Source of the DNA: Candidatus Tectimicrobiota bacterium
Lineage (GTDB): Bacteria > JACPSX01
Direction of reading: 5' to 3'
Length of the DNA: 5,805 nt
Assembly: GCA_016193065.1 (NCBI GenBank)
Contig: JACPSX010000097.1
Span: 1 to 5,805 of the forward strand
This document shows, piece by piece, positions 1,707 to 3,555 of this stretch (the stretch's first letter is position 1; the number at the start of each line of letters is the position of its first letter). The notes under the pieces were generated by a model, which saw nothing but the letters and a program-made list of their open reading frames with translations, did no database searches and had not been told where the DNA came from. Position numbers and translations under genes: made by a program.

Positions 1707-1750
1707 TTTTTTTGGATTAGGGGTAATTCTTTCTGCTAGTGAAAACTAGC
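1707..1750. other. T-tract and GAAA-loop hairpin at the aroF 3' end
   Basis: A T7 run (1707-1713) lies 20 bases after the nested element. A 6-bp perfect hairpin, GCTAGT-GAAA-ACTAGC (1735-1750), encloses the aroF stop codon (TAG, 1748-1746 on the minus strand). On the plus strand the loop is GAAA, a stable GNRA tetraloop. Neither strand has a U-run directly after this stem, so it is not a standard intrinsic terminator. The T7 run has only a weak stem just before it. Transcription must stop somewhere here for both convergent units, but the site is not clear. Confidence 0.35.
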
Positions 1751-2780
1751 GCGCTGGCACTCCGTGCAGGACCCTGCCGGCCGCCTCGATGAAGGGCTGC
1801 AGCTCCACCATGAGCTTCTCAAACTTGCTCGGCTTCAAGGACTGGGGCCCATCCGAGAACGCCTCCTCCGGCCGCGGATGCACCTCCACCATGATCCCGT
1901 CGGCCCCCGCCGCTATGGCCGCCTTGGCCATGGGAATCACGTACCGCCAGTTCCCCGTGGCGTGGCTCGGATCCACAATGACCGGCAAATGGGTCTCCTC
2001 CTTGAGCACCGGAACCGAACTGATGTCCAGAGAATTCCGGGTGGCCGTCTCAAACGTCCGGATCCCCCGCTCGCACAGAATCACGTTGGGGTTCCCCTCC
2101 GACAGAATGTACTCGGCCGACATCAAAAACTCCTGGATCGTGGTCATCATGCCGCGCTTCAAAAACACCGGCTTGGAGACCCGCCCCAGACGCTTGAGCA
2201 ACGAGAAGTTCTGCACGTTGCGGGCCCCCACCTGCAGAATATCCGCATAGGCATTCACCAGGTCCACCTCCTCGGGGTTCATCACCTCGGTGATGATCGG
2301 CAACCCGGTCTCCTCCCGCGCTTCCGCCAAAATCCGCAGCCCCTCCTCGGCCATCCCCTGAAACGCGTAGGGAGACGTGCGCGGCTTGAAGGCTCCCCCG
2401 CGCAATATGTGAGCCCCATGGGCCTTGACCACGCGGGCCGTCTCCAAAACCTGCTCCCGGCTCTCCACCGAGCAGGGACCGGCCATGACGACGACCTCCG
2501 GTCCCCCAATCTTGACCCCTCCCACGGAGATCACGGTCCCTTCCGACTTGAACTGCCGGCCCCCCAGCTTGTAGGGCTTCAGGATGGGAACCACGCTCTC
2601 CACGCCGGGCATGGAGATGAGAGCCTGGAGCTGGGCCTTGCCCCGCTCATCCCCCACCGCGCCGATGACCGTCTTTTCCACTCCCCGGATGAGGTGCGTG
2701 TTATATCCCATGGCCTTCCCCCGGCCGATCACTTCTTCGACTTGCGCATCCGTCGACTTGCCCTTCATTACGATGATCAT
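1746..2780 (-). CDS. aroF: DAHP synthase (3-deoxy-7-phosphoheptulonate synthase), type I-beta with N-terminal regulatory domain
   Basis: Condenses phosphoenolpyruvate with erythrose-4-phosphate, the first committed step towards chorismate and Trp, Tyr and Phe. The protein has 344 residues. Residues 1-70 form the ferredoxin-like domain known from the Thermotoga maritima enzyme, where it mediates feedback inhibition by Tyr and Phe. The TIM-barrel catalytic domain follows. Metal ligands are visible as C103 (GPCSVES), H273 (PSHATG), E299 (GIMVEVHP) and D310 (SDGPQS), each one residue after its T. maritima counterpart. [11 protein letters not shown] (132-142) and the K208-R209 pair of FLKRGM are substrate-binding motifs. 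Two ATGs lie six bases apart. The ribosome site GAGGGAG (2793-2787) abuts the first (2786) but sits 6-9 bases before the second (2780), so 2780 and the MIIVMK start are preferred. Expression is probably controlled by the attenuator upstream. Confidence 0.97.
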
Positions 2781-2786
2781 CTCCAT

Positions 2787-2793
2787 CTCCCTC
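2787..2793 (-). promoter_or_regulatory. aroF ribosome binding site that selects the second ATG
   Basis: GAGGGAG on the minus strand ends directly next to the ATG at 2786, which leaves no spacing for that codon. It is well placed for the ATG at 2780. It begins 16 bases after terminator 2 ends, so that stem does not mask it. Confidence 0.7.
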
Positions 2794-2808
2794 GTTAGTT
2801 GCCAAATG

Positions 2809-2848
2809 AAAAACGGGCCATCCTGTCTTCTACCCGGCGGCCCGTTTT
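2809..2848 (-). terminator. Second (promoter-distal) intrinsic terminator before aroF
   Basis: On the minus strand AAAACGGGCC (2848-2839) pairs perfectly over 10 bp with GGCCCGTTTT (2819-2810). The loop is 19 bases and one more T follows. It is a typical A-stem-U terminator, near-symmetrical and so perhaps active both ways. It lies only 28 bases before the aroF start, with no gene between it and the first terminator, so it must be bypassed or conditional if aroF is read from the leader promoter. Its 5' arm overlaps a segment able to pair with the 3' arm of terminator 1. Confidence 0.75.
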
Positions 2849-2854
2849 ACCCAT

Positions 2855-2889
2855 AAAAAAAGCCGCGGGGCTCTTCGTCCACCCGCGGC
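2855..2889 (-). terminator. Attenuator terminator (segments 3:4) of the aroF leader
   Basis: On the minus strand GCCGCGGG (2889-2882) pairs perfectly over 8 GC pairs with CCCGCGGC (2869-2862). The loop is 12 bases and T7 (2861-2855) follows. The stem starts 19 bases after the leader peptide stop codon. The last four bases of the 5' arm and part of the loop (2885-2876) can instead pair with 2954-2945 inside the leader peptide coding sequence, so termination and antitermination exclude each other. Confidence 0.88.
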
Positions 2890-3002
2890 CTGTATTGAGT
2901 TCGCTTAGCTAACTGTTCCTGCTCTCACCACCCAACACAGCGCCCGGGCAGACGGGGGTAAAGTAAAAGCAATAAAAGTACCGCCAAGCCCCTTTCTGCC
3001 CG
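2876..3002 (-). promoter_or_regulatory. Alternative RNA pairings (1:2 and 2:3) of an aromatic-amino-acid attenuator
   Basis: Segment 1 is CGGGCAGA (3002-2995). It pairs with segment 2, TCTGCCCG (2952-2945), over 8 bp. GGGG (2992-2989) with CCCC (2958-2955) adds 4 bp across a 2x2 internal loop. The Trp/Tyr/Phe codons (2986-2960) fill the loop. Segment 2, as CGTCTGCCCG (2954-2945), can instead pair with segment 3, CGGGTGGACG (2885-2876), over 10 bp with two G-U pairs. That pairing takes half of the terminator's 5' arm. In the classical model a ribosome waiting at the early aromatic codons (2986-2972) covers segment 1 and frees segment 2 for the antiterminator. Smooth translation lets 1:2 and the terminator form. 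The pairings are read directly from the sequence; the regulation is inferred. Confidence 0.8.
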
Positions 3003-3028
3003 ATTCTCTCTGCGACGCTGGGTGTCAT
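2909..3028 (-). CDS. Aromatic-rich leader peptide of aroF (39 residues)
   Basis: A short gene upstream of aroF on the same strand. It starts MTPSVAERIGQKGA and contains WRYFYCFYF at residues 15-23, which is one Trp, three Tyr and three Phe in nine positions. It ends at TAG (2911-2909), 19 bases before a terminator stem. GAGG (3038-3035) lies six bases before the ATG at 3028, an ideal distance. Another in-frame ATG (3034) directly touches the GAGG and is unlikely to be used. The promoter lies about 45 bases further upstream. The role is probably to sense charged tRNA for Trp, Tyr and Phe, as trpL and pheL do; the peptide itself need not have a function. The rest of the sequence matches no family known to me, which is usual for leader peptides. 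Confidence 0.85.
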   Translation of the reverse strand: MTPSVAERIGQKGAWRYFYCFYFTPVCPGAVLGGESRNS

Positions 3029-3079
3029 GCACATCCTCGAATTGCCCGATCTTGTAGACGAGACGACGACAATGCAGTA

Positions 3080-3118
3080 TATATACTCGACCCCTTCCGG
3101 TGGTGTCAAGGCTTTTTT
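3080..3118 (-). promoter_or_regulatory. Promoter of the aroF leader transcript
   Basis: On the minus strand a perfect -35 TTGACA (3109-3104) is followed after 18 bases by TATATA (3085-3080) as -10. An A6 run (3118-3113) just upstream of the -35 could serve as an UP-like element. The start site would fall near 3073 (A), giving a 5' end of about 45 bases before the leader peptide and about 290 bases before aroF. This looks like a housekeeping sigma-A type promoter. The -10 lies inside the 12-base perfect palindrome AGTATATATACT (3076-3087), which might also be a repressor site. Confidence 0.8.
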
Positions 3119-3555
3119 AGGGCTTGCTCACCCCCAGTTCATCATCGAGGAAGTGGGACTTGGCAAAATCCTCGGGGTGCCCCCTTGGGCTCACGAAGCG
3201 CTTGCGACGTGAATTGTGTGGGCCGGATTAAGAGTTCCCTTCCTCGCAACCGCTTAGATCGCCTGCGGGGGCTACCCCTCGGACCGGGACGACTGAGGAG
3301 GCTGCCCGATCTGCCCTGAGCGGAACTGCCGGGAGCAATGGGGACCCACCGGGAGCGGCCAGGGATGGGAAACCGCGCAGCCTAGACTTGCTTGCAGATA
3401 GCTGACCACTTAACGTGGCGGTAGCGGAGGGGTCCCACCCTGGGCGCCCCAGAAGGGTCATTGCGGAAGGCGTGAAGCGAAGGGCAGGAGGAAGCCCCTT
3501 TGCTATGGAGCCGCTTTCAGAGATGGGGGTGGGCAAGCTTTTTAAGGGGGTAGCA
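3119..3555. other. Gap without a convincing gene, several local hairpins
   Basis: This stretch separates the aroF promoter from the aminotransferase start. Open frames here lack a ribosome site or family resemblance. Local stems on + include CCAC/GTGG at 3406-3418 inside GCT/AGC (3401-3425), CTGGG-CGC-CCCAG at 3440-3452, and a 10-bp stem with one bulge at 3476-3504. CCGGGAGC occurs twice between 3330 and 3360. It may be a long structured 5' leader of the aminotransferase or decayed sequence. No T-box (GGGTGGNACCGCG), SAM, cobalamin or TPP signature was found, and no convincing plus-strand promoter. Confidence 0.4.
3476..3504 (+). promoter_or_regulatory. Hairpin presenting AGGAGG in its loop, before the aminotransferase
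   Basis: AGCGAA-GGGC (3476-3485) pairs with GCCC-C-TTTGCT (3494-3504) over 10 bp with one bulged C and one G-U. The 8-base loop is AGGAGGAA (3486-3493), a full Shine-Dalgarno sequence. An in-frame ATG follows directly at 3505, 13 bases after AGGAGG, which is longer than usual. If the stem forms, it changes the effective spacing and access of that site. It may serve an alternative start 17 codons upstream of the preferred one. Confidence 0.4.

Follow-up and report, generated by a model that had tools for sequence, protein, structure and literature searches.

A probable ribosome-mediated attenuator with a Trp/Tyr/Phe leader peptide before a type I-beta DAHP synthase gene of a Candidatus Tectimicrobiota bacterium

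The aroF locus and the parts of its leader

The window, i.e. the whole stretch of DNA analysed here, comprises 5,805 nucleotides of contig JACPSX010000097.1 from a Candidatus Tectimicrobiota genome (assembly GCA_016193065.1). Its minus strand carries an aroF-type gene, the product of which matches the models NF006421 (E 3.8e-154, 512.9 bits, cut-off 335) and TIGR01361 (E 7.6e-124, 412.2 bits, curated cut-off 267.75). The start of the gene is most likely ATG 2780, because the sequence GAGGGAG is then properly spaced and the homologues inspected begin with M-I-I/V-V. No other DAHP synthase gene was detected in the genome, which is 86% complete, so that absence is not proof; the remaining matches are weak (36–39% identity over partial length) and probably represent the related KDO8P synthase, and a search of the same 86%-complete assembly for a type II DAHP synthase found none. 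Searches across the family, class and phylum of the window matched its own genome only. The nearest aroF outside this genome, in locus L075, is 73% identical; further sampling around G214, the nearest relative, yielded no additional close homologues, and a DNA search of plasmids gave no match.

The features of the aroF leader are listed below in the order in which they would be transcribed.

3080..3109, minus strand: predicted leader promoter, TTGACA (3109-3104), 18-nt spacer, TATATA (3085-3080)
3035..3038, minus strand: putative ribosome-binding site GAGG of the leader, 6 nt 5′ of ATG 3028
2909..3028, minus strand: leader peptide ORF, 39 codons plus TAG, encoding MTPSVAERIGQKGAWRYFYCFYFTPVCPGAVLGGESRNS
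2989..3002, minus strand: segment 1, CGGGCAGAAAGGGG; the fold of 3002-2945 has -26.4 kcal/mol
2960..2986, minus strand: control codons Trp15-Phe23, WRYFYCFYF, inside the loop of stem 1:2
2929..2958, minus strand: segment 2, with the core CGUCUGCCCG at 2954-2945; its partner is segment 1 or segment 3
2876..2900, minus strand: segment 3, antiterminator partner of segment 2 and 5′ arm of terminator 1
2855..2889, minus strand: terminator 1 (3:4), GCCGCGGG (2889-2882) / CCCGCGGC (2869-2862), U7 at 2861-2855
2809..2848, minus strand: second terminator-like hairpin (5:6), AAAACGGGCC / GGCCCGUUUU, U5 at 2813-2809, -20.0 kcal/mol
1746..2780, minus strand: aroF-type gene (type I-beta DAHP synthase that includes an N-terminal region); ATG 2786 is an alternative start

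The control run contains one Trp, three Tyr and three Phe, that is, seven aromatic residues among nine consecutive ones. Transcription of the leader is expected to start near 3073. The original prediction, made from the letters alone, had placed the promoter, the ribosome site, the 39-codon peptide with WRYFYCFYF, three stems and the U7 run on this strand and in this order, and all of them are found there. What it had described as a 12-bp stem 1:2 consists of 8 + 4 bp with an internal loop (3002-2989 with 2957-2945), and the loop enclosed by it is exactly that of the aromatic codons Trp15–Phe23. The 10-bp antiterminator 2:3 (2954-2945 with 2885-2876, including two G-U pairs) and the terminator 3:4 with its eight G-C pairs and T7, likewise predicted, can be read in the sequence and are reproduced by folding, which adds an inner helix to the 10-bp stem; the 2:3 fold has -42.2 kcal/mol and terminator 1 has -16.8 kcal/mol. 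The segment 2850-2960 folds with a z-score of -3.87, and 0 of 200 shuffles folded equally well.

A simple promoter and terminator scan of the window listed neither the leader promoter nor terminator 1, because the -10 hexamer has A as its last base and the loop of the terminator exceeds the limits of the scan. An Rfam scan of the leader matched no family, and the T-box covariance model (RF00230) matched neither the window nor any part of the 86%-complete genome. Our leader-plus-terminator detector (described below) found no second match on either strand of the window.

Two other elements of the window are worth recording. On the plus strand, 3123-3541 is a copy of a dispersed repeat of ~420 bp that ends 14 bp 5′ of the -35 element of the leader promoter; at least 45 matching stretches, 73–94% identical, occur on many contigs of the same genome, and also in L199–L205. 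The repeat was checked for a convincing ORF, an Rfam family and long inverted repeats, and none was found. Misbinning of this short contig was considered and set aside, as the repeat is common to many other contigs of the bin and the GC content agrees. Also on the plus strand (827-1535) lies a gene for a family 4 uracil-DNA glycosylase with an apparent frameshift near 1430, the expected C-terminal sequence running on in another frame, which may reflect an assembly error or decay.

Stall position and the exchange of pairings

The behaviour of the leader was modelled by placing each leader codon in the A site, assuming ribosome footprints of 9, 11, 13, 15 and 17 nt, and folding the RNA left free 3′ of the ribosome up to the first U run as the transcript end. 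Such folding of naked RNA at equilibrium shows no more than that the sequence is arranged for a switch of this kind. With the ribosome stalled at any codon from Trp15 to Phe21, P(2:3) was 0.69–0.99 and P(3:4) ~0 over the footprints of 9–17 nt; at Tyr22, P(2:3) was 0.40–0.99 with P(3:4) still near 0, and at Phe23 the outcome varied with the assumed footprint. By the time the ribosome stood at Val26, or already earlier, 3:4 had taken over (P 0.95–0.98). With no ribosome on the RNA, 1:2 formed with P 0.93–0.98, and P(3:4) was 0.88 in a longer transcript and 0.25 in the transcript cut at the first U run. The pairings 2:3 and 3:4 are mutually exclusive, and across the footprints of 9–17 nt their probabilities change places where the aromatic run ends. 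The simulation thus disagrees with the earlier proposal that only stalls at Trp15–Tyr19 would be effective: folding favours 2:3 strongly as far as Phe21 and mostly at Tyr22, so nearly all of the control codons should work.

The mechanism that we envisage is the classical one. RNA polymerase would start near 3073 and a ribosome would follow on the leader ORF. When any of the charged tRNAs for Trp, Tyr and Phe runs low, the ribosome would stall within codons 15–23 and cover segment 1, upon which 2:3 would form, 3:4 would be blocked and aroF would be transcribed. When all three amino acids are ample, the ribosome would enter the codons of segment 2, leaving segment 3 free, and terminator 1 would form. 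If the leader is not translated, 1:2 would form and termination would again be allowed. With less certainty, 5:6 may act as a second terminator governed by the same stall through pairing of segments 4 and 5.

This last point depends on the hairpin between terminator 1 and aroF (arms 2848-2839 and 2819-2810, then T5). Its 5′ arm (GGCCGCCGGGUAG) is a near copy of segment 3 (GGCCGCGGGUGG) and is therefore able to pair with segment 4. The resulting 4:5 duplex has -20.3 kcal/mol in the window, where 0.75% of shuffles were equally good; the corresponding values are 0.25% in L075 and 0 of 2000 in locus L012. In L075, two hairpins with U runs occupy the same places as in the window (-110 and -65), and in L012 the second hairpin is present without a U run. 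As long as segment 6 is not yet made, the predicted fold contains 4:5 together with 2:3. The arrangement would then be a six-segment chain, 1:2/3:4/5:6 versus 2:3/4:5, with two terminators under one stall, to which we assign a probability a little short of one half. Such a chain is known from hisL, in which A:B, C:D and E:F alternate with B:C and D:E and the last hairpin alone is the terminator, whereas in the window a U run follows 3:4 as well as 5:6.

The alternative, which we rate at just under an even chance, is a classical attenuator acting at terminator 1 alone, 2848-2810 being a fail-safe, a weak constitutive terminator or a hairpin that stabilizes the mRNA. It is favoured by the 19-nt loop and short U run of 5:6 and, above all, by the equilibrium folding of the finished window RNA, in which 5:6 forms with P 0.80–0.96 in both states and so persists during the stall. 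Equilibrium folding of the window does not support 4:5 as the prevailing state, which is obtained only in the fold lacking segment 6, and coupled control of the second hairpin would need kinetic trapping in 4:5. Against a hairpin indifferent to the stall stand the performance of 4:5 relative to shuffles in all three loci, the prediction of 4:5 before segment 6 is made, and the consideration that a strong constitutive terminator directly before aroF would waste the control exerted upstream. Between the two-terminator chain and a fail-safe terminator the balance is about even. As a separate observation, the second hairpin of L012 (~2790-2850 of that locus) carries CCUCCAGG, a perfect complement of the ribosome site CCUGGAGG of the DAHP synthase gene, so an additional translational control of this gene is possible.

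Aromatic leaders before DAHP synthase genes of other bacteria

No other genome from the phylum of the window was available, and the sampling was therefore widened to DAHP synthase genes of the same type across bacteria, represented by 152 upstream regions. The detector required a closed ORF no longer than 70 codons in which at least five residues in nine are aromatic, followed by an intrinsic terminator 5′ of the gene. At this loose cut it found leaders in 22 of the 152 regions, in one of the 152 reverse complements and in none of 760 dinucleotide shuffles. We quote mainly the strict cut (at least seven aromatic residues in nine, plus the terminator), as the loose one takes in false positives; it retained 14 of the 152 regions, from nine families, and no reverse complement. 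Among the calls of the loose cut, that in L163 was rejected as a leader, since it resembles the end of the coding sequence of a pheA-like gene lying upstream, and those in L070, L071 and L083 are doubtful. Most of the surveyed homologues lack such a leader in their upstream regions, including one that is 71% identical (L044).

Examples of the aromatic runs are YFFNGYRFFWGYFWF (L045), FFIDYNFYFWFGFYF (L099), LFYGFFFGYFYFF (L126), VYFTYFTYFNFNYYWFF (L136), SYWWYYFYSW (L162) and, in a metagenome-assembled genome of Spirochaetes (L012), SYFFYFYFYF, read from a GTG start. The hexamer TTGACA also occurs 5′ of the leaders in L045, L075, L091 and L012. The peptides of other lineages have their aromatic composition in common, not their sequence. 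Pairing 2:3, taken as that between the stretch after the aromatic codons and the region of the terminator 5′ arm, was stronger than in shuffled sequences for 17 of the 20 leaders (combined p 1.5e-20), and pairing 1:2 was also enriched (combined p 1.9e-9); both combined values assume independent leaders and overstate the case, as some leaders share a family. In L079, L080 and L107, the three missed, the test was anchored on the last hairpin instead of 3:4, and the pairing was read by eye.

The helix 2:3 is kept with differing sequence in the window (GUCUGCCCG/CGGGUGGAC), L075 (GGUCUGCC/GGGCAGACC), L080 (GUCCGUCCGC/GCGGGUGGAC) and L136 (GGGGAUAGUCC/GGGCUAUCCCC), and in L136 and L162 its sequence is wholly unlike that of the window. 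By eye, the core GUCYGYC in segment 2, together with a segment 3 that matches it, is common to the window (GUCUGCCC/GGGUGGAC), L075 (GUCUGCC/GGGCAGAC), L080 (GUCCGUCC/GGGUGGAC), L079, L107 and L099. In L099, 13 nt (CCGUCUGCCCGGG) are identical to the segment-2 core of the window and lie in another reading frame; it is therefore the RNA, not the peptide, that is kept. Very aromatic leaders, e.g. AYFNFFFSSYYFYFFF, were also noted in one family in L138, L141 and L126 and in another in L136 and L160, with 2:3 helices that differ in sequence.

In the Nostocales sampled, the attenuators are complete and doubled. All 11 of the loci examined (L031–L035, L037–L041 and L043, from Nostoc, Fortiea and Brasilonema; aligned) have two aromatic leaders in series before aroF, at ~2334-2950 of the loci, each with its own terminator. 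Typical peptides are MFSSNYYFYFWxKAVHRE and M...NWFYSFYFWPRANSG. In L043, for instance, the partner of segment 2 (CGGUUCACCGGG) is CCCGGUGAACCG, and this partner overlaps the terminator arm GAACCGCAGA. An Rfam scan of five Nostocales loci left the tandem leaders unmatched, and we found no published description of them among openly licensed papers. According to a study of 2016, reliable data on cyanobacterial attenuation were lacking at that time (PMC4833913).

Known attenuators, other readings and implications

Attenuation by stalling on a leader peptide is a textbook principle, and trpL, pheL and hisL of enterobacteria resemble the window in relying on it, each of them reading one amino acid. 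The DAHP synthase gene under the control of aroR in Corynebacterium glutamicum encodes an enzyme of type I-alpha, that of the window one of type I-beta. The original prediction knew of no description of such a leader for a type I-beta enzyme, which is too strong a statement, since leader peptides and attenuators before DAHP synthase genes are already known. The ribosome-mediated attenuator aroR of C. glutamicum (Neshat 2014, via PMC11802643 and PMC4046766) likewise places aromatic codons (Phe-Tyr-Phe) immediately 5′ of aroF, a DAHP synthase gene; it belongs to Actinobacteria and, in published work, answers Phe and not Tyr limitation, with Trp not mentioned, whereas the window peptide holds Trp, Tyr and Phe. 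The predicted uORFC-13-1 of Acholeplasma also combines a uORF with Phe codon(s), a promoter and an adjacent terminator before aroF; its 24 examples come from one genus and environmental sequences, and what is described is a U run coding for at least one Phe, not a run of three kinds of aromatic codons (PMC8632094). Attenuators, i.e. a terminator and antiterminator before the same enzyme class, were predicted in 2005 for aroA-I-beta operons, e.g. that of Thermus thermophilus (Merino's database, PMC1173090 Table 7), the passages on them naming no sensor or leader peptide. An attenuator was also suggested for E. coli aroF (Camakaris 1980, as cited in PMC8632094 and PMC2659441).

Could the terminator of the window be conditional but governed by something other than the ribosome (a protein that binds the RNA, a riboswitch of an unknown class or a tRNA sensor akin to a T-box), with the aromatic ORF as an incidental feature? 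The leader is long enough for such a sensor, and the sensors of aromatic genes do differ between lineages, T-boxes being cited for tyrosine genes of Gram-positives (PMC1262725). Nevertheless, we regard this possibility as very improbable: neither Rfam nor the T-box model gave a match in the leader or the 86%-complete genome, respectively, the switch coincides with the end of the aromatic codons, and aromatic ORFs recur before the same gene in many families. The setting in Firmicutes implied by the original prediction is unsupported: the searches of the phylum match the genome itself, and the assembly, 86% complete, gave no T-box hit. Less credible still is a small hydrophobic protein with a function of its own as the product of the ORF, the hairpins serving simply to terminate the transcript. 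A promoter, ribosome site and terminator do make up a complete small gene, but the peptides of other lineages are alike in aromatic composition only, the reading frame across CCGUCUGCCCGGG is another one in L099, and two mutually exclusive partners of segment 2 would be needless in so simple a gene.

The leader is real and most likely functional, and the anatomy, the stall simulation and the recurrence of similarly built leaders before this gene in other lineages together lead us to interpret it, with high probability, as a ribosome-mediated transcription attenuator of aroF that works by the classical mechanism. Attenuation by Trp, Tyr and Phe before a type I-beta DAHP synthase, the core of the original prediction, is well supported. 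Less expected are the reading of Trp, Tyr and Phe by one peptide, the second hairpin and the breadth of the distribution. The full picture, in which aromatic attenuation is widespread among bacterial phyla and largely undescribed for type I-beta DAHP synthases, the window has a two-terminator six-segment chain and Nostocales have tandem leaders, is put forward tentatively, its chances as a whole being slightly below even.

Synthesis of all aromatic amino acids begins with DAHP synthase, so that one shared enzyme serves three end products, and a leader reading three amino acids at once would solve the control problem that such an enzyme poses. The survey suggests that such a solution has arisen in, or spread to, many lineages, some of them with little known regulation by leader peptides. 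As the tandem leaders occur in several named strains, attenuation in cyanobacteria becomes directly testable.
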